Notes under the pieces: generated by a model
Seen by the model: only the letters and a program-made list of their open reading frames with translations
Told to the model about the DNA's origin: nothing
Databases searched by the model: none
IMG/VR virus record: IMGVR_UViG_3300042566_000988
Span: 1-29,957 of that record
DNA length: 29,957 bases
Source of the DNA: a virus
Direction: 5' to 3' (one strand)
Part shown: positions 7,979 to 26,168 of the stretch, piece after piece
How the letters are laid out: each line of letters begins with the position of its first letter
Numbering within the stretch: the first letter of the stretch is position 1
Program-made: the position numbers and the translations under genes

Positions 7979-10299
7979 TTGCCTGCCCTCCGCAGATTAA
8001 AGGCGCCCTGCATTGCCGTATCCAGCCGGCCTGAGACAAGGCCTTTTGCGACTACATCTGTAATCATGATTTCAATCTGCCGAATGCCAAATCCGTCGGT
8101 ACCACGGTCATTAGCTGTTGCCTGGGCATTGTTGCCATTGTTGTTAACGGTGATATTGACGCCGCCGCTGCCGCTAGATTGCACGCCGAGCTTGCCATTG
8201 CCCATTCTGCTCAATGGCAAGATTGCTTCAGCTCCTGCTTCGCCAGCAACAGATAAGGCTCCGCCTTGCGCAAAGGCATGAAGCTTTCCTGCTTTAAAAA
8301 ATGTTGGGCTAGTTACGATGCTGTTGCTAAATTGAGATAGCGATGGCGTTCCGGAAAAGACATTGCCATCGGCGTTGGCCATGGCGCCGCCATTCTCAAG
8401 ACGGGTGCTTCCTGTCATGTCTCCAGTTGACCCTGCTGTAAACATGCTGCCAAGTGTTTGGCCGAGATATTTAATAAGACCAGCAGTTGCCGCCTGCGCT
8501 TGCATGCGAAGAATGTCTGAAATAATCCCGTTCGCCAGATTTGTGAAATTGAGCTTTCCGGTCATAGCGAACTGAACTAGCGCATCTTCCATGCCACGAA
8601 ATGCGTTGCCAAAAAGCGTTTCCATTCCCTTCGCAGCATTTCCTGCGCTATCAACATATTCTCGAAATGCTCTATCTGCACCCGTTTCCCATCGGCGTTC
8701 GATTGCCAGGCGCGATGTCACGCTTGCTTGCTGGATAGCAACTGATGCTTCCATGGCTGCCTGCATCTGGGCTAGAGATTCAGCAGATACGGCGCCTTTG
8801 CTGCGCTCGATTTGATCGATTTGTTTCTTGAGCTCAAGCTCAGCCTTATGCTGCACATTGAGCAATGCGACTTCGCTGGCTGTTTTTCCGATTAGGCTTG
8901 CCTGGTATTCCAGCTCAAGATTCTGGTCGGCCAAGGCATCTCGGTAGCTTTCGACAGCCCGTGCCTCATCGAGGCGCTTAAGTTGGTCAATAAGAGGTGC
9001 GGCAGCTTCGAGAACACCCTTTTCTGCAGCCTGCAAGCGGAGCATGGCGTATTCGCCCTGGTCCGCCTTCTCGATACGGGCTTGTAGGCCCTGCAAGAAT
9101 CCGTCACCTGCCTTATTTGCTGGAGCAGATCCAGCATTTGATTCAAGTAAAGGTTTGCTGACTGAGCCGGCTACAGCTGCCGCAACGGCGCCAGCACCCA
9201 TCTTTTCCTGCAGGCGGCCAGAGAGATACGTACGACTGGCAATCTTTTCATAATCGGCATAAAACTCGGTCATGACCTGACCGGCCGCCTTAAATTCTCC
9301 CTGAAATAACAGCGCAATCTGGGCTGCCTGGGCGCCCATAAATTTTCCCGTTACCTGGAATCCGCGTTGCAAAACATCAAGCGAGTCGATAACCAGTGCT
9401 AAGCCAGTCACGGCGGCCTCTGACCAGTCCTTGATACTTCCATCTTGCGCTAATCCATCGACGCTGCCGCGCAGTCTATCTGTTGATGTATTTGCTTCTG
9501 TTAGGGCCTTAACAAATGCGTCAGCAGCTGGCAGCACTTCCATGCTGATGCTCTTAAACAGGGAGTCCTGGCTAATCTGGAGGCGCTTGAGGTTTTTATC
9601 AAACGCGTCGGCCATCTCAGCTTGCTCTGCTGTAGTTTTTGCAGCCAGCGTGCCAGCTTCGGCCATGTCGTTGAATAATGGCAGGAGTGTGCGGCCTTGT
9701 TTGCCAAAGATTTCAGTTGCGACTGCTGCCTTGACGCCAGAATCCTCGTATTTATTCATCGCCTCGGCGATTTTGATAAACATGGCACCGGTATCCATGC
9801 CGGCGAGTTCTTTGGAAGTCAGTCCGATACGGTTAAGAGCATCACGGACCTTTTCAGAAGGGCCGCCCGTTGCTTCCATGTTGACGGCAAGCTTACCCAG
9901 AGCGCCGCCGAGGTTTTCCATATCCATACCGCTGATTTTTGCCACGGCGCTAATGGCTGACAGGCTTTTTACTGATGCCCCAGTCTGTTCTGACATGTCT
10001 TTCAAGGCTGCAACGCTATCAACCGCCTTGTTGAATTGCATGATTAGTGCACCAATACCTACACCTGCGCTTAATCCGGCAATAGCGAGTCCTGCTTTTC
10101 CAACGGCGCCATCCAGCGTAAAGGCGCTTTTCAAGCCAGCGGCAATCTTCGTGCTTGCTTCGTCAGTGCTTCGAAGTAGCCCCGCTTTAATAGTTTGGCC
10201 GCTTTGTTCGGCAATCGTTGCGGCCTGGCGTAAACCTGTCTGCAGACTTGCAAGGTCTACCCCAAGCCGAATAACTGCAGTTGGTGACATAGTTGCCAT
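7975..10299 (-). CDS. Tail tape measure protein (lambda H-like)
   Basis: The 774-aa protein sets tail length and is probably ejected with the DNA. Near residues 67-85 is a Gly/Ala-rich hydrophobic stretch (GLAIAGLSAGVGIGALIM). The bulk is helical, with many Ala, Lys, Glu and Gln residues, and the C-terminal third (about 560-630, MEDALVQFAMTGKLNFTNLA onward) matches the lambda-type tape measure C-terminal domain. The C-terminus ends in a Gly/Asn-rich segment. The ATG at 10299 follows the GT stop by 3 nt, and the SD-like AGGT overlaps that stop, so translation depends on GT. A second in-frame ATG three codons on is possible. Confidence 0.93.
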   Translation of the reverse strand: MATMSPTAVIRLGVDLASLQTGLRQAATIAEQSGQTIKAGLLRSTDEASTKIAAGLKSAFTLDGAVGKAGLAIAGLSAGVGIGALIMQFNKAVDSVAALKDMSEQTGASVKSLSAISAVAKISGMDMENLGGALGKLAVNMEATGGPSEKVRDALNRIGLTSKELAGMDTGAMFIKIAEAMNKYEDSGVKAAVATEIFGKQGRTLLPLFNDMAEAGTLAAKTTAEQAEMADAFDKNLKRLQISQDSLFKSISMEVLPAADAFVKALTEANTSTDRLRGSVDGLAQDGSIKDWSEAAVTGLALVIDSLDVLQRGFQVTGKFMGAQAAQIALLFQGEFKAAGQVMTEFYADYEKIASRTYLSGRLQEKMGAGAVAAAVAGSVSKPLLESNAGSAPANKAGDGFLQGLQARIEKADQGEYAMLRLQAAEKGVLEAAAPLIDQLKRLDEARAVESYRDALADQNLELEYQASLIGKTASEVALLNVQHKAELELKKQIDQIERSKGAVSAESLAQMQAAMEASVAIQQASVTSRLAIERRWETGADRAFREYVDSAGNAAKGMETLFGNAFRGMEDALVQFAMTGKLNFTNLANGIISDILRMQAQAATAGLIKYLGQTLGSMFTAGSTGDMTGSTRLENGGAMANADGNVFSGTPSLSQFSNSIVTSPTFFKAGKLHAFAQGGALSVAGEAGAEAILPLSRMGNGKLGVQSSGSGGVNITVNNNGNNAQATANDRGTDGFGIRQIEIMITDVVAKGLVSGRLDTAMQGAFNLRRAGK

Positions 10300-18095: not shown

Positions 18096-18407
18096 TTACC
18101 TCTTTACGATGTCGTAAATCTGGGTTTTTGAGAGGCCATGTCGAGACATAAGCTCTTTTAGGTTGGTGCCGTTAAATTCACGCTTGATGCTGGCATCTCG
18201 CTCGCGCTTCTCTTGCGTGCCATTGAACTTGGGGACGTATACATGGTTACCGCCCAGTCGGCGTCGTAATCCCCGGGTGATGGCTTCGGCAATCTGGCTG
18301 GCAAACGCTTCGGCCATGCCGACCTCTTCCTGGATGGCGGCGGTAACTTCGTAGACCAAAGACACGGATGCGTCATCAATCTGCGACAAAGACTCACGGT
18401 TGATCAT
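18096..18407 (-). CDS. Mor-family transcription activator
   Basis: The 103-aa protein has an acidic N-terminal helical half (DASVSLVYEVTAAIQEEVGM, ASQIAEAITRGLRRRLGG) and then NHVYVPKFN followed by RDASIKREFNGTNLKELMSR and GLSKTQIYDIVKR. This is the pattern of Mu Mor/C proteins: a dimerisation half, a VYVPK-type linker strand, and a helix-turn-helix at the C-terminus. Mor binds as a dimer and recruits RNA polymerase to promoters lacking a good -35. Here it sits in the head gene block, overlapping its upstream neighbour by ATGA. It may activate late genes or the following cassette, whose promoter has a -10-like box and no -35. Confidence 0.88.
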   Translation of the reverse strand: MINRESLSQIDDASVSLVYEVTAAIQEEVGMAEAFASQIAEAITRGLRRRLGGNHVYVPKFNGTQEKRERDASIKREFNGTNLKELMSRHGLSKTQIYDIVKR

Positions 18408-19232: not shown

Positions 19233-21173
19233 TCAGAGACGCGATCCCCAATCGCTTTTTGTCACACCTGATGTTTTTTGTTTTTTATGGATACGGCTTG
19301 CTGCATTATTAGGTTTAACTGCTGGTTTTGCAACGGTTTTTGAGTCTGACACATTAGAAATATAAGCTTCGGATGCGGCAGACTCCGGTTCTAGCATCAT
19401 TGCCCGACGCCGCCAATCAGCAATACGCCACTTGTGCAGGTACAGCTCAGGATGCTGGCTGGCTGCGATGGCGTAAACGCGGGTATCCAGTGGCTCGTTG
19501 CGCTTACCTTTTTTGATCTCCCAGCGGTTTTTGCGTGGGTTATAAGTTTCTGAGACCAGACCATCGAAATATTGCGGGTCTAGCGCCGTCGAAAAGTGCA
19601 TCTTGCGGTCGCTGGGGTCTTTGTCTGCATCGCCATTAAGCCGGGCATAAATCAGGTGCTTTGCGGTATCTGTGCCGACGGTATAGAGCGCCACGCCTTT
19701 TTTGATGGTCTGGCCTCGCCAGTTCACATCCTGATGGCTGGGCTTACCAAGAATGATTCGACCGGGCTGGCTGGCACCTTTGATGGCTATGCAACGTCTT
19801 ACTCGCTGGCTGCGCACAAAGTTGTAGACAGCATGGGTATGGTGACCGCCGGTATCAATAGCGGTGGCTTCAATGCGGAGTGCTTTGCCATAGGCGTTGG
19901 TAAACTCAGCCGATAGGTAGTCTGCCAGGGCATCCCAAACGCGCTGCTCTGCCGGGTTGCCAAAAATAACGTGGTAGTCGATGGTCCACTCTTTTTCGCC
20001 AATCCCATGGCCAACAATCTGTATCTCGAGTCGGTCATCTTGCGTATCAACACCGGCAGTTAGAACCAGGCATCCCATAGGGATGGTACGCAACGCATAA
20101 GGCTCTGCACGCGCCATGAGCACGTTTGGCTTTAGGTCATGTGACCTGTCGGCCCACGTTTCTCCGAGGCGGGTATTGACGAACCGCATCAGCTTCGACG
20201 GATCGTCCTGCGCCTCAATCCATTCATCAGCCAGCTCTGCCCACGATAGGCCAAGACCGATTGGCGAGTACAGCGCGTTGATATGATACGAGCGCCAGAG
20301 CCCTTCAGGGTTATGCGCCAGCCAGCGGCCTTGCGACATCATGGATGACTTGAGGTGCTCGCCAATCTCGCCACCGCAATGCTCGCAAACGTACCAGGCA
20401 TGCGAGCAATGCCGCCCTGTTTTAGTCCAGCGTAGGTTCGGCCATTTCAGATGCTGCCGCTCATCACAATGCGGGCATGGCACCATGAACCGGCGCTGGT
20501 CGCCAAGCTCAAACTGCTCTTCGATTCGGCTGGCATCTTTCATGGTCGGTGTACTGACGACAAACAGCTTTCGATCATGGAAGGTGGTCAGACGCACTTC
20601 CAGCAAACCGAGCGGGTCGCCCTGCAGGGTGGACCAATCGTATTCGTCGATTTCATCAGCCAGGGCATAGCGCAGCGATGTAGACTTGAGTTCGGCTGTC
20701 GAGCCGGCCGTTTTGGCGTAGAAGATGCCGCCGGTAAAGCGTTTGCGGAATGCCGAGTTATCCCCTGCCCGATTGCTACGGCTGGCCATGACTTCGGCAA
20801 TGGCCGGTGTATCTTTGGCCATTGGGTCAAACTTCTGGCTCATCCAGTCCTGCAAAGACTTCTCGGTTGGCATGACAATGGCGACCGGACCCTTGGCATG
20901 GGTCATGATGTAGCCAAGCCAGTTGCTGCCAGCCTCGGTACCGCCGACTTGAGACGATTTCATGAAGACTACTTTGCGGACTGGAGACTCTTCTGACAAT
21001 GCATCCATGATCTCGCGCAGGTAGGGCGTGCGCGATGTTTTCCAGCTTCCGGCCTCAGCGCTACCCTCGCCAGAAAGTACGCGATTGGCATCCGACCACT
21101 CGGATACCGTGAGCGGCGCCTTTGGGCGAATCGCCCGGCGTACCGCAGAAATCGTTATTGCCAGCGCGCTCAT
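19233..21173 (-). CDS. Terminase large subunit, lambda GpA family
   Basis: The 646-aa protein has an N-terminal ATPase with a variant Walker A around residues 71-79 (MKSSQVGGTE) and Walker B RYALADEIDEYD at 169-179. A zinc-ribbon-like insert follows: Cys233-x2-Cys236 and Cys263-x2-Cys266. The nuclease domain begins with LTAGVDTQDDRLEIQIVGHG (Asp374), continues with AIDTGGHHTHAVYNF, and is followed by a Lys-rich disordered tail. It cuts concatemers and pumps DNA into the prohead through the portal. The family usually recognises cos sites with a Nu1-type small subunit. It overlaps the small subunit gene by ATGA. Confidence 0.96.
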   Translation of the reverse strand: MSALAITISAVRRAIRPKAPLTVSEWSDANRVLSGEGSAEAGSWKTSRTPYLREIMDALSEESPVRKVVFMKSSQVGGTEAGSNWLGYIMTHAKGPVAIVMPTEKSLQDWMSQKFDPMAKDTPAIAEVMASRSNRAGDNSAFRKRFTGGIFYAKTAGSTAELKSTSLRYALADEIDEYDWSTLQGDPLGLLEVRLTTFHDRKLFVVSTPTMKDASRIEEQFELGDQRRFMVPCPHCDERQHLKWPNLRWTKTGRHCSHAWYVCEHCGGEIGEHLKSSMMSQGRWLAHNPEGLWRSYHINALYSPIGLGLSWAELADEWIEAQDDPSKLMRFVNTRLGETWADRSHDLKPNVLMARAEPYALRTIPMGCLVLTAGVDTQDDRLEIQIVGHGIGEKEWTIDYHVIFGNPAEQRVWDALADYLSAEFTNAYGKALRIEATAIDTGGHHTHAVYNFVRSQRVRRCIAIKGASQPGRIILGKPSHQDVNWRGQTIKKGVALYTVGTDTAKHLIYARLNGDADKDPSDRKMHFSTALDPQYFDGLVSETYNPRKNRWEIKKGKRNEPLDTRVYAIAASQHPELYLHKWRIADWRRRAMMLEPESAASEAYISNVSDSKTVAKPAVKPNNAASRIHKKQKTSGVTKSDWGSRL

Positions 21174-21733
21174 GAGTCGCCTTTTTCCTGATTCATGCGC
21201 TTCGAAAACTCGCGCTCCATATCCGTGAGTGCCGCACGAATGTCTTGCCGCAGCACGGCGCGAATGGCATCCAGGTCTTTCCCAACCAAATCGGGCCCCG
21301 TGCGATAAGGCAGCTGCTCGAGCGCCTGCCGGAATGTAGTGACTACGTCAGCCACAGCCAACCGCATATCAGCAATTGGCACCAGTTCGCCAATCTCCCG
21401 CTCGTAATCCAGGCGGGCTCGCTCTGCCAGAAAGTGCTCTTTTTTTGCTCTGGCACGCTGGTAGCTGTGCTCTTCCGGTGAATCGTCGACAGGTAACTCT
21501 GGAGGTACGGAGTTAAGCTCTGGAGATTGACCACCGCGCTCATCTCTCCAGCGGTTTACAACGTCATCTCTGTTGGGGTCGGCAGTTTCTTTAATCCGTG
21601 CTTTGGATGCTTTAACAAGTACGCGGCCATCCTGATCGATTACTAGGCGGTTTTCTCGTTTGAGCTTGGTGATGTAGCTGCGATCGACGCCGAGCATTCT
21701 GGCGAATTCGATCTGTTTAACGGAATGTATCAT
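21170..21733 (-). CDS. Terminase small subunit (Nu1-like)
   Basis: The 187-aa protein starts MIHSVKQIEFARMLGVDRSY (ATG 21733), with GGGAG 8 nt upstream and a TAATG overlap with the preceding stop; an ATG at 21748 has no SD. The N-terminal ARMLGVDRSYITKLKREN is a winged-helix/HTH recognition unit. The middle (residues about 60-110) is charged and possibly disordered with SYQRARAKKEHFLAERARL, a motif seen in phage terminase small subunits, and DYEREIGELVPIADMRLAVA follows. The C-terminal helices form the oligomerisation and large-subunit contact region. It would bind the packaging start site; that site has not been located with certainty here. Confidence 0.88.
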   Translation of the reverse strand: MIHSVKQIEFARMLGVDRSYITKLKRENRLVIDQDGRVLVKASKARIKETADPNRDDVVNRWRDERGGQSPELNSVPPELPVDDSPEEHSYQRARAKKEHFLAERARLDYEREIGELVPIADMRLAVADVVTTFRQALEQLPYRTGPDLVGKDLDAIRAVLRQDIRAALTDMEREFSKRMNQEKGDS

Positions 21734-21945
21734 TAACGGCACTCCCATGGCACTGTGAGCGATTCAAATGGTTTACTGCGGGGTGTGCCAATCTCTATGC
21801 CGTTTTCACGCGCCCAGAAGGTTTCTTGACCATCCATGCCGGCTTTAATGGATTGGTTGATGCTGTCAGCGCCGAATACTTCCCGGCACTCATCAATAAA
21901 CGCCGTGACGATGGGCATAGATTCGCGGAGGCTTTTCTTGCTCAT
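21733..21945 (-). CDS. Small phage protein upstream of terminase (70 aa)
   Basis: The protein starts MSKKSLRESMPIVTAFIDEC and ends PFESLTVPWECR. The ATG at 21945 lies 6 nt after the last iteron of the mirror array, so any upstream extension would read through the repeats and is unlikely. The core ECREVFGADSINQSIKAGMDGQ is a pattern found in short proteins before terminase genes in several prophages. Only a weak SD (GGAA within the iteron) precedes it. The stop overlaps the terminase small subunit start. Function unknown. Confidence 0.75.
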   Translation of the reverse strand: MSKKSLRESMPIVTAFIDECREVFGADSINQSIKAGMDGQETFWARENGIEIGTPRSKPFESLTVPWECR

Positions 21946-21950
21946 GCGGC

Positions 21951-22209
21951 TGTTCCAGCTCTGTTCCAGCTCTGTTCCAGATGAACTGAAAATAAAATCC
22001 AATAAAAACAACTGTGTTCCAGATGTTCCAGATGTTCCAGATGATTTGTATACGCGCGCGAGAAAAATATATGTGTAAGTTGTCGTTTTTGTTTTCTTAC
22101 GCCCGTGCGCGTGAAAGTGCTGGAACATCTGGAACATCTGGAACAGCTATGATTTAAAACATATTTTTTTACGAAGCAGCTGGAACAGAGCTGGAACAGA
22201 GCTGGAACA
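21951..22209. other. Mirror-symmetric array of 12 iterons, probable replication origin
   Basis: Twelve exact 8-mers are present: TGTTCCAG at 21951, 21962, 21973 (11-bp step) and 22015, 22024, 22033 (9-bp step), then its reverse complement CTGGAACA at 22120, 22129, 22138 (9-bp step) and 22180, 22191, 22202 (11-bp step). Every position is mirrored exactly about base 22080. The outer arms are identical over 30 bp, the inner arms over 26 bp, while the spacer sequences differ. The centre (22041-22119) is AT-rich with flanking CG-rich patches. The array starts 5 bp after the primase-helicase stop. P4-type primase-helicases bind iterons of the form GGTGAACAG, which these resemble. An alternative is a terminase binding (cos/pac) site. 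Confidence 0.8.
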
Positions 22210-22213
22210 CGCA

Positions 22214-24694
22214 TCACGCAGCCATCCTTTCGAACTGGTTTTGGCTGCTCTGCAGTGCATCTGCAAACTTTTTACAGCACCGACTCAGCCAGGCTGTCTC
22301 TGTTTCAGTCTCTGATCGTTGAGACTCCTGCGAGACATCGCGGACATGGATGGTGGCCGCCGGGTCGCCTTTGCCGGGTGGTATGACAATGTTTTTTACG
22401 GACGTTTGTGTGCTGGTAGCAGACTCGTAGATCCGGGCTTTCTTTTTCACAAAGCCGTGATGCGTCAGCTGGCTATAAAACTGAGATGCGCTACGTGGCC
22501 GCGATTCCCCGTTACGCTGGCAATAGGCCCGATAGGCGGCATAAAGATCTGGTGACTGGCATGGGCAAACAGGTAGTCCAAGGTCACCATCCATCCAGTC
22601 GTTTGCAAAGCGGATCTCGCTGCCTGCAGATAGATCAATGAGCCGTTGCTTTGCCTCGGTCATAGGAGGCTTTGATCCCTGGTGAAAATCCGTTAGATCG
22701 ATATTGAGCAGGTAGTCGTAAAACGCAGCCAGGCCACCGTTATCCATCTGTTCAACGACTTCTCGATAGGTGGCACCAGACATGGGTGGCGGTGTATAGA
22801 TCACCAAGTGGCGGCGGTCGCCAATATCCAGCGGAATCGGCTGGCCTTCATTCGAAAGAAAGACCATATTCATCTGGTTTTTCTGATGCACGGCATTGGC
22901 AAACTTCCCTTCGATTCTGATGGTGTCGCCGGTGATGAGCTCTTTCAGCTCGTTTTTAAGCTGCCACTTATCAGAGCTATTGACCACTTCCTCTGCCAGG
23001 ATGAACAGCTTTGAATCCCAGTCCGGGTTGAAGTTACTCTGCAGCGCTTTCTGATCGAGAACGATGGAGTAGTTCAGGTATGGATTGCCTTTGTAACCAT
23101 AGAGTTTTGCCAGCGTTTTGAACACCATCGACTTACCGGTGCCCTGCGGGCCGTGCATGATGACGGCGCTCTGCATTTTTGCGCCTGGGTTTTGCAGCGG
23201 GTAGGCCATCCACTTAATCAGAAAATCGAAAGAGCGCTGGCTGTCTGGATCATTACCGCAGAGATACTGGATCAGCTCAAGGAATAGCTCGCAATTACCC
23301 TTCGCTGGTTTCATTGGCCAGCCACGCCAGGTGTTGAGCTTAATGTGCGCGTCTTTGCAGGATGGGTCGAATCCAACCTGATCGATGTAGTACGCACGCG
23401 ATAGCCACACCGGGTGACGTTTTACATCATCACCCCGAACACCGGCTGGCAGCATGCCAATCATCTTGCGCTGATGCACGACCTTATTGGTCCAGGTGTC
23501 GAATACCGACTCCCCTGAGTCGTCATCTAGCTTGACGAAGCGCATCACCAGGTCATCGAGCGGCATTACGGAAACCGCATCATTGCGGCCGCTTTCCCCT
23601 CCCCCCTGGTGTAGCGCTCCCGCCGGAACGACGGTGGCTGAAACATCCCACTGCAAGCCGGCAAGGTGGGTTTCGATCTGGGCACGAACTTCCTGCAGGC
23701 CTTCGGCCATGTGCAGGTCGTTAAAGTCGGTCGGCCCTTTGTGGTCAATCGGTCGTTCTGCTGAAAACTTCGGTGCTACCACGCTGCCGCCAACGGCCAA
23801 TGCGGCATTAGCAGCATCGACAACGCCCTGGTTGATACTGCGATGTTCTGCGCCACAGTTGGTACAAACCTTCTGCGCAACCAACGTCCATTCGCGGCAT
23901 TCCTTACATTTCTGCAGGTAATCGTCATCGGCACAGATCAGAATCTTCGTCCGGCGGTACCGATCATGCAGCGCCTGGGCGACCGGCATTAGATTGCCAG
24001 CGTCAAACGCTACTGCCACCGGGTGGCCGGTGGCCATGTGCAGGCTAGCAGCAGTTGCGTATCCCTCTGCAATCAGTAGCACTTTGTCCGGGATTCCACC
24101 GATCAAAAAGAAGTGCCCCTTCTTGGCAAGACCAGCAGGCCAAAAATCCTTGTCACGGTCACCCTTCTTTTTGGCGTAGATGACCTGCAGACCGTGGATC
24201 TGGCCATTGGTGTCCAGCATCGGAATGACCATATTGCCGCGCTCAGAGAATCTAACGCCAAAGCCTTCAACGCCCTTGCGCTTCAGATACTCACTTTCGC
24301 CAACTGGCAGGCACTTACCCCATCCAGCCCGGGCGCGATGCGCAGCCGATTCGTTGCGTCGGCGTTGCTCGGCTGCCGCGCGTTTTTTATCCTCAGCCAT
24401 TTTTGCCCGGAGCGCTGCCATCTGGTCAGCACTCATGGCTTTGCGATCAGCCTTTGGCAGCTCGATTTTCTGGACAATATTCTCTGCGCCCCAGAAGGCA
24501 CCAAAGCTACCAACGATCAGCGTGCCAGATCCATCATCTTTATTCAGTTCGTAGAGCTGATACCAGCCGCGCTTCTCTTTGCCGCCATCCTTGTGACGGC
24601 AGCGGCGGCGCTGGCCAATGACCAGGTCAGACTGAGTAACATCAAGGCCAAACGCCTGAAGCTGCGCAACAACGTCATCGAAGTTCAGCCACAT
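22214..24694 (-). CDS. Primase-helicase, P4-alpha/DUF5906-type replication protein
   Basis: This 826-aa protein combines several domains. An N-terminal region (Cys32, His34, then a Trp-rich stretch) may be the primase zinc finger. A Toprim-like domain has Glu210 in LLIAEGYATA and Asp256-258 in ILICADDDYL, with an unusual zinc-knuckle insert Cys263-x2-Cys266 and Cys277-x2-Cys280. The SF3/D5-type helicase has Walker A MHGPQGTGKS (513-522), Walker B KLFILAEEVV (562-571) and NMVFLSNEG (609-616). A C-terminal winged-helix follows (YAAYRAYCQRNGESRPRSAS), likely to bind the origin. The ATG has AGGT upstream. The iteron array 5 bp downstream is its probable target. Confidence 0.92.
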   Translation of the reverse strand: MWLNFDDVVAQLQAFGLDVTQSDLVIGQRRRCRHKDGGKEKRGWYQLYELNKDDGSGTLIVGSFGAFWGAENIVQKIELPKADRKAMSADQMAALRAKMAEDKKRAAAEQRRRNESAAHRARAGWGKCLPVGESEYLKRKGVEGFGVRFSERGNMVIPMLDTNGQIHGLQVIYAKKKGDRDKDFWPAGLAKKGHFFLIGGIPDKVLLIAEGYATAASLHMATGHPVAVAFDAGNLMPVAQALHDRYRRTKILICADDDYLQKCKECREWTLVAQKVCTNCGAEHRSINQGVVDAANAALAVGGSVVAPKFSAERPIDHKGPTDFNDLHMAEGLQEVRAQIETHLAGLQWDVSATVVPAGALHQGGGESGRNDAVSVMPLDDLVMRFVKLDDDSGESVFDTWTNKVVHQRKMIGMLPAGVRGDDVKRHPVWLSRAYYIDQVGFDPSCKDAHIKLNTWRGWPMKPAKGNCELFLELIQYLCGNDPDSQRSFDFLIKWMAYPLQNPGAKMQSAVIMHGPQGTGKSMVFKTLAKLYGYKGNPYLNYSIVLDQKALQSNFNPDWDSKLFILAEEVVNSSDKWQLKNELKELITGDTIRIEGKFANAVHQKNQMNMVFLSNEGQPIPLDIGDRRHLVIYTPPPMSGATYREVVEQMDNGGLAAFYDYLLNIDLTDFHQGSKPPMTEAKQRLIDLSAGSEIRFANDWMDGDLGLPVCPCQSPDLYAAYRAYCQRNGESRPRSASQFYSQLTHHGFVKKKARIYESATSTQTSVKNIVIPPGKGDPAATIHVRDVSQESQRSETETETAWLSRCCKKFADALQSSQNQFERMAA

Positions 24695-25705: not shown

Positions 25706-25938
25706 GTGTTTGGCGTTGGAACTTCCTCGGAACACCATTGCCGCACCATATGGGCAATTTGTTCTGGGGTCTTAACCAAGGCATACGCCTCAAGCATTCG
25801 GCCAGATGGTGAGTAGACCCTTAATGAATAACCGTTCTTGCTAACGTCGACCGTCAGGATGCATCCAAGTCTTGGATAGTCATCACCTGAGTAGTCAACG
25901 CATGGATGCTGGTCTCGATCTGGGATCTGGATATTCAT
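25690..25938 (-). CDS. Hypothetical early protein (82 aa)
   Basis: The protein starts MNIQIPDRDQHPCVDYSGDD and contains CILTVDVSKNGYSLRVYSPS, then a helical end with EQIAHMVRQWCSEE. Its ATG overlaps the cro-like stop (ATGA), so it is the second gene of the PR transcript, before the terminator. Two strands followed by a terminal helix suggest a small alpha/beta fold. I do not recognise a family. It takes the place between cro and tR1; lambda has no gene there but related phages carry small accessory genes. Confidence 0.7.
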   Translation of the reverse strand: MNIQIPDRDQHPCVDYSGDDYPRLGCILTVDVSKNGYSLRVYSPSGRMLEAYALVKTPEQIAHMVRQWCSEEVPTPNTQPLS

Positions 25939-26168
25939 GCCGCCTCCGGTTTTTGTGATTTGCGCAGGTATGCCCAGTCAACATCCGGGCGCAGGTCTTC
26001 GCAGCGGATTGCCCCTGAAGTTGCTTTTTCTATCGCTGGGCAATGCTCTGCGGGAACAGATTTTCTATTTACCCATGCCCAAATGGTTTTTGGGCTTACA
26101 CCAATGGCATCAGCAAGAGCCTTTTGAGAACCCAACAAATAGATCGCTTGATTGAGTGATTTTTCCAT
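25935..26168 (-). CDS. Cro-like regulator, YdaS-type HTH
   Basis: The 77-aa protein starts MEKSLNQAIYLLGSQKALAD and has an HTH (QKALADAIGVSPKTIWAWVN), followed by VPAEHCPAIEKATSGAIRCE and DLRPDVDW. This is the classic YdaS/Cro-like arrangement of lambdoid phages, where the protein opposes the repressor at shared operators. It is divergent from the repressor gene across an 80-bp operator region. The PR -10 box ends 6 nt before its ATG, so the transcript should begin at or next to the start codon, and no SD exists. It is therefore probably read from a leaderless mRNA. Confidence 0.88.
   Translation of the reverse strand: MEKSLNQAIYLLGSQKALADAIGVSPKTIWAWVNRKSVPAEHCPAIEKATSGAIRCEDLRPDVDWAYLRKSQKPEAA

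Follow-up and report, generated by a model that had tools for sequence, protein, structure and literature searches.

The question raised by this locus is what reads, and what is done by, a 259-bp array of twelve short repeats (iterons) lying directly beside a primase-helicase gene in the virus record IMGVR_UViG_3300042566_000988, of which a stretch of 29,957 bp was analysed here (the window). We conclude that the array is very probably the replication origin of the phage, bound by the 826-aa primase-helicase, two hexamers of which would be arranged as mirror images for a bidirectional start. The parts of the array are as follows.

21951..21980, + strand: distal outer triplet, TGTTCCAG at 21951, 21962 and 21973, 11-bp steps
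21981..22014: distal spacer, AT-rich (76%), holding the tract AATAAAAACAAC at 22001-22012
22015..22040, + strand: distal inner triplet, TGTTCCAG at 22015, 22024 and 22033, 9-bp steps
22041..22119: centre between the half-arrays, 79 bp, candidate melting and loading region
22047..22060: alternating pyrimidine-purine block TGTATACGCGCGCG in the array centre, 14 nt
22104..22113: second alternating block CGTGCGCGTG in the array centre
22120..22145, - strand: proximal inner triplet, inverted TGTTCCAG at 22120, 22129 and 22138, 9-bp steps
22146..22179: proximal spacer, AT-rich, unrelated in sequence to the distal spacer
22180..22209, - strand: proximal outer triplet, inverted TGTTCCAG at 22180, 22191 and 22202, 11-bp steps

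The twelve perfect 8-mers, in four triplets with steps of 11, 9, inverted 9 and inverted 11 bp, were located exactly where the earlier note had placed them. Its description of a full mirror was also correct, as all six mirrored site pairs sum to 44160 and the centre of the array therefore lies at 22080 with zero deviation. When the gaps and strands of the twelve window sites were shuffled, twelve mirrored sites were reached in 0 of 200 shuffles. Downstream of the primase, the commonest 8-mer within 600 bp was present in 12 copies, compared with a maximum of 3 in 100 dinucleotide shuffles, and only two copies of the TGTTCCAG 8-mer (15466 and 2946) were detected outside the array in the 30-kb window. 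The last base of the array is 22209, and the stop codon of the primase runs from 22214. The reported adjacency to the primase-helicase was thus confirmed, but the distance is 4 bp and not 5 bp; the latter is the gap on the other side, to the ATG (21945) of a 70-aa ORF. The array occupies the entire gap between this stop codon and this ATG. The statement that the spacers are unrelated applied to the two 34-bp spacers within the arms but not to comparisons between phages, where the distal T-rich tract and the CG-rich blocks of the centre were kept; the tract AATAAAAACAAC itself was found in the two closest relatives. The AT-rich distal spacer with AATAAAAACAAC is a possible unwinding element.

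The genes next to the array are all encoded on the - strand, in the order primase-helicase, array, 70-aa ORF, terminase small subunit (TerS) and terminase large subunit (TerL), followed by head and tail genes.

22214..24694, - strand: primase-helicase, 826 aa, with Toprim_3, DUF5906/VapE SF3 helicase core and Pox_D5; proposed initiator
22433..22447, - strand: KKKAR codons, residues 750-754, first strand of the wing
22382..22591, - strand: codons of the predicted C-terminal winged helix, residues about 702-771; proposed iteron-binding domain
21733..21945, - strand: 70-aa ORF, starting 5 bp beyond the array
21170..21748, - strand: TerS, phrog_57; rival binder
19233..21173, - strand: TerL, GpA family

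The window encodes a portal, a capsid protease, a tape measure, tail protein J and terminase; with this gene content it is a complete tailed phage, unlike satellites. As CII-, Cro/YdaS- and repressor-like genes are also present, the phage is presumably temperate. A match to a late transcriptional activator (phrog_532) was seen amid the terminase and head genes (18096-18407, - strand), and a YdaS/Cro-like protein (Pfam YdaS_toxin) is encoded in the early region beside the CII-like regulator (25935-26168, - strand). No DnaA box (TTWTNCACA) was found inside the array; the nearest one is at 22443, in the gene, and the window contains three against 1.9 expected. A DnaA-dependent iteron plasmid origin was rejected on the absence of these boxes from the array. 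The search for terminators near the array gave one weak terminator-like match only, inside the gene, and GC skew showed no clear switch. The DNA of the array region gave no similarity match to public phages and E. coli genomes, and only partial relatives of the primase were found in host genomes.

A profile search for the primase identified 80 relatives, and the array was scored in the 78 having enough sequence. It was present at the primase 3' end in 74 of them. The relatives were reduced to 54 lineages at <85% primase identity, mostly metagenomic contigs, and among the 52 testable lineages 48 carried an iteron array 3' of the primase, whereas the controls gave 0/38 upstream of the gene and 0/54 inside it. 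Across lineages, the distance from the primase stop codon to the first iteron had a median of 9 bp (IQR 4-16). Relatives having the same primase without the array, named in the earlier note as grounds for refutation, were very rare: four of the 52 lineages were below the array threshold, and L260 and L292 had low exact counts, yet showed degenerate sites at the expected places. When one mismatch was allowed, 12, 12 and 11 copies were counted in the Pseudomonas phages pAN, Turba and SC9, respectively, and the copies in phage AXL_3 were not above those in its own shuffles.

Two close relatives, with primase identity of about 78-79%, shared the array of the window. The steps in L124/L255 were 11, 11, 42, 9 and 9 bp around the centre. 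L123/L252 had CGTTCCAG at every one of the twelve sites and inner steps of 8, 9 and 9, 8 bp, indicating that even the deviation was mirrored. A single-base change running through all twelve copies is what a binding-site array co-evolving with its protein would show. At primase identities of 30-45%, GTTCCA was absent and the design of the array was retained: Stenotrophomonas phage S1 carried GTGCGG twelve times in a 6+6 arrangement, and the iterons were TGTGCGGT in L126/L127, TGTGAAG in L125 and TGCCGGA in L128/L129. The iteron sequence was specific to each lineage while the layout recurred, and the expectation that relatives keep spacing and symmetry as the sequence varies was borne out.

Some of these loci showed peculiarities of annotation or gene structure. 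The primase-helicase of L128 (2224-5060) and of L129 (2569-5405) is divided between two overlapping ORFs (392 and 553 aa), with the TGCCGGA array directly behind the second. In phage S1 (L133), the annotated hypothetical protein gp2 (2454-2804) overlaps the 12-site array (2471-2733); as this CDS sits squarely on the array, it is probably a mis-annotation.

The sites in each lineage were counted by a position-weight scan, whose threshold admits approximately 0.4 false sites per 400 bp, so that an occasional surplus site (13 instead of 12) is to be expected. The most frequent number of sites was 12 (20/48 lineages). Six was also the most frequent number in each half, being counted in 21/48 lineages on the left and in 21/48 on the right, so that 6+6 is the commonest count. 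Mirror pairing exceeded that of gap and strand shuffles at p<0.05 in 35 of the 48 lineages. Exact 12-site mirrors were observed in the window, L274, L266, L295, L282, L252, L255 and L279, and the iterons of the exact mirrors (TGTTCCA, CGTTCCA, TGTCACA, GTTCCGG, CGATACG, ACGTTCC and ACCGCAC) included at least six unrelated sequences. In S1-like phages, L303 and L315, the grouping was 4+2 in one half and 3+3 in the opposite half, with six sites per half retained. The spacings across lineages clustered at 9, 11-12, 20-21, 31-34 and 42-43 bp, with about 42 bp between groups. The constants of the family are therefore the position, six sites per half and the steps of 9, 11-12 and 42 bp, and the window, with its exact mirror, stands at one extreme of the variation. 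Unsymmetric spacing in relatives had also been named as evidence against the proposal. Symmetry was indeed incomplete in many relatives, and an exact mirror is therefore not required; the 6+6 count was the steadier feature.

The base composition of the centre differed from that of the spacers. The mean AT content over the family was 0.39 in the centre, close to the 0.40 of the gene, whereas the distal spacer reached 0.54; in the window itself the centre has 57% AT and contains CG-rich blocks. The distal spacer (0.54) was richer in AT than the proximal one (0.46, p = 7e-4), placing the AT-rich part between the distal inner and outer sites. In 27 of 28 lineages, the longest alternating purine-pyrimidine run in the centre was longer than those in 95% of equally long windows of that locus, with a median of 15 nt and a maximum of 35 nt. 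In more distant helicase families (L168, L170, L171 and Moraxella phages) the centre was AT-rich (75-87%). The alternating centre, which would be easily kinked, unwound or converted to the Z form, may take over the role that AT-rich DNA has elsewhere.

The protein that reads the iterons was sought by comparing iteron similarity between lineages with domain similarity, using 500 permutations and correcting for the helicase core or TerS. Iteron similarity tracked the C-terminal domain of the primase given the helicase core (8/500 permutations as high) but not the TOPRIM half (157/500). Within the C-terminal domain, wing residues 752-753 were K/R followed by a small residue in 17 of 18 lineages with TTC iterons and in 0 of 19 others. 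The TTC label changes approximately seven times on the helicase tree, at least three of these on well-supported branches. In an unbiased scan of all columns, the strongest columns were clade markers of the helicase core, and the C-terminal domain was not singled out; the independent switches with good support numbered three, too few for a sign test. As the scan was dominated by clade and independent pairs were too few, the match of 17/18 against 0/19 is suggestive and not proof. The covariation of the iterons with the C-terminal domain is confounded by clade.

The predicted fold also pointed to the primase-helicase. An AF2 model of residues 357-826 had a pLDDT of 88.8, and the best structural match of this helicase half was the C-terminal region of the NrS-1 primase (Z 24.4, 358 residues aligned), which also matched the window protein in a sequence profile comparison (E 3e-24). 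The SaPI5 primase-helicase matched with Z 17.5, and the further SF3 matches after it were PriRep1 (with dsDNA, Z 13.9), poxvirus D5/E5, papillomavirus E1 and AAV Rep. The C-terminal domain alone was modelled as a winged helix with weak matches to ORC, RFX and PadR (Z up to 4.5), and residues 750-754 of its wing are predicted to form the DNA-binding surface of the initiator. In sequence comparison, the domain barely matched the origin-binding domain of P4; the solved structure of the P4 C-terminal domain (1KA8) was absent from the structure match lists, but the two domains may nevertheless be related.

The recurrence of the array, the covariation with the C-terminal domain and the fold all favour an origin read by the primase-helicase, which had been the first hypothesis in the earlier note. 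The C-terminal winged helix of the 826-aa protein would bind the twelve iterons. Six sites per half correspond to one per subunit of an SF3 hexamer, so two hexamers in mirror orientation may flank the centre; going by the number of sites alone, each half-array probably holds one hexamer. The DNA would then melt at the alternating purine-pyrimidine centre, at the adjacent AT-rich spacer, or at both. Loaded on the separated strands, the hexamers could travel as a pair in opposite directions, with priming by the TOPRIM domain.

A packaging site of cos or pac type, recognised by TerS and cut in its centre, has to be taken as a serious alternative because terminase genes follow the array in nearly all lineages. 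A terminase gene was found downstream in 39 of the 40 lineages having at least 3 kb of downstream sequence, TerS and TerL come next in the window, and lambda cosB likewise lies upstream of the lambda terminase genes. The array is anchored, however, at the stop codon of the primase (median 9 bp) while the TerS match starts 274-2242 bp away, a placement that does not fit a lambda-type cos/pac site. Moreover, iteron similarity tracked the C-terminal domain given TerS (1/500) but not TerS given the C-terminal domain (72/500). In Marinobacter phage PS3, lysis genes come after the primase and its array, and P4, which needs the terminase of its helper, has iterons 3' of alpha too. Binding by TerS, put forward in the earlier note as the outcome that would overturn an origin, is therefore compatible with the gene order but disfavoured by anchoring and covariation, and we consider a packaging site improbable.

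Two other explanations appear less likely than the packaging site. The intergenic DNA from the primase to the next gene is entirely taken up by the array, which runs up to the next ATG, as might be expected of an operator array through which a regulator, perhaps the primase-helicase itself, controls transcription into the terminase and structural genes, the origin role being secondary. No sigma-70-type promoter was detected in 21700-22400, however; an operator would not need as many as twelve mirrored sites around an 80-bp centre, and the layout does not change with the identity of the following gene, which makes this explanation very improbable. The folded single strand, as a cruciform or as an RNA hairpin in the primase message, could be the functional form, since the strand of the array forms a much more stable fold than its shuffles do (z -13.6) and other lineages behave likewise. 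Inverted iterons pair by construction, however, and the spacers between the triplets stay unpaired. The clustering of steps at 9, 11-12 and 42-43 bp suits the reading of duplex DNA, and the array region matched no Rfam family; a functional fold is accordingly given only a very slight chance.

The earlier note regarded the plan of the array as unlike described phage origins, and this was right only in part, as the origins of SaPI/PICI elements and P4 crr share its place and iteron logic. In SaPI/PICI elements (SaPIbov1, SaPI5 and EcCICFT073), the origin lies immediately 3' of the D5-like SF3 rep/primase-helicase gene, and the rep-ori segment of EcCICFT073 replicates a plasmid (PMC6092414). Two sets of short iterons flank a central element there (PMC6092414, PMC7581432), and the C-terminal domain of SaPI Rep recognises them, apparently as two hexamers (PMC7581432). 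The window has the same 3' position (4 bp; family median 9 bp), two iteron sets and a D5-like SF3 fold with a predicted C-terminal winged helix, for which iteron binding is likewise predicted. It differs in that the SaPI/PICI centre is AT-rich, whereas that of the window family is alternating purine-pyrimidine, and in that SaPI/PICI elements are satellites while the window phage has its own structural genes. The SaPIs were compared by published description, and neither exact mirror geometry nor six sites per half appears in the descriptions in PMC6092414 and PMC7581432. Cch2 of SCCmec is a D5-like helicase that loads itself; its C-terminal domain binds direct repeats situated immediately behind the gene that encodes it, at a putative origin (PMC7581432), although with only three 5-nt iterons and no mirrored double array.

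P4 resembles the window in that the iterons of crr lie directly 3' of the initiator gene alpha with spacings of 9 and 43 bp, and in that the six type-1 sites of its ori equal one half-array of the window in number. In contrast, the P4 sites are split over two places approximately 5 kb apart, with type-1 iterons GGTGAACA in separate ori and crr, and crr is a direct repeat and not a mirror, while the window has one continuous TGTTCCAG array. The window protein also scored 30.5 bits with the P4-family model TIGR01613, below the cut-off of 108.7. By analogy, the window array may work like the SaPI/PICI and P4 systems. The closest solved structure to the helicase half, that of the NrS-1 phage primase-helicase C-terminal region, belongs to a protein from which the window protein differs by its TOPRIM primase domain. 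SV40 large T and papillomavirus E1 are SF3 hexamers acting on inverted site pairs, and the E1 helicase domain matched the window model (2gxa, Z 13.3); in these eukaryotic viruses, however, the origin-binding domain is on the N-terminal side and the sites are far fewer.

The chances are about even that these arrays represent a large, uncatalogued class of phage origin, characterised by a 6+6 mirror code, two SF3 hexamers, a Z-DNA-prone centre, and an iteron and winged helix rewritten together in each lineage. What is new with respect to SaPI/PICI and P4 is the occurrence in complete temperate phages, the 6+6 mirror kept under iteron turnover and the alternating centre. If such a class exists, phages with a common helicase would become replicons blind to one another, with an unchanged geometry of loading. 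How two ring helicases come to be loaded in opposition is central to understanding the start of replication, and dozens of lineages with varied site sequences and one geometry make spacing rules separable from sequence. The origin reading predicts the initiator, its DNA-binding surface (750-754) and a stoichiometry of six per half, and offers a practical rule for locating phage origins. Culturable cases are Stenotrophomonas phage S1 and the Pseudomonas phages Turba, PG1 and pAN.

A pattern search based on triplets only also hit many protein-coding repeats with steps of 9, 12 or 15 bp, and the analysis was therefore confined to non-coding arrays with sites on both strands. Viral contigs such as L016, L029, L041, L058 and L099 carry long GTTCCA arrays with steps in multiples of 3 bp, which resemble coding repeats and flood motif searches. 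The occurrence of the same GTTCCA core beside unrelated D5/VapE helicases was not counted as proof of a shared code, because these loci had been found by the same pattern. Marine contigs (L149, L037, L025, L157, L151 and similar ones) have GTTCCA arrays with inner 8-bp steps and gaps of 42, 98 or 119 bp, adjoining a family of 200-290-aa proteins without a Pfam or PHROGs match and not a primase-helicase; they possibly represent a different initiator with the same kind of array. A group of contigs of 10-14 kb from isolate genomes (L147, L171, L172, L191, L200, L214, L228 and L233) have a 12-site GTTCCA array with an AT-rich centre 10 bp behind a 531-aa phrog_864 primase, and look like satellites or islands. 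Finally, L239 carries a 12-site GTTCCA array (8834-9086) that is an exact mirror with its outer sites flipped, located inside a 1282-aa open frame.
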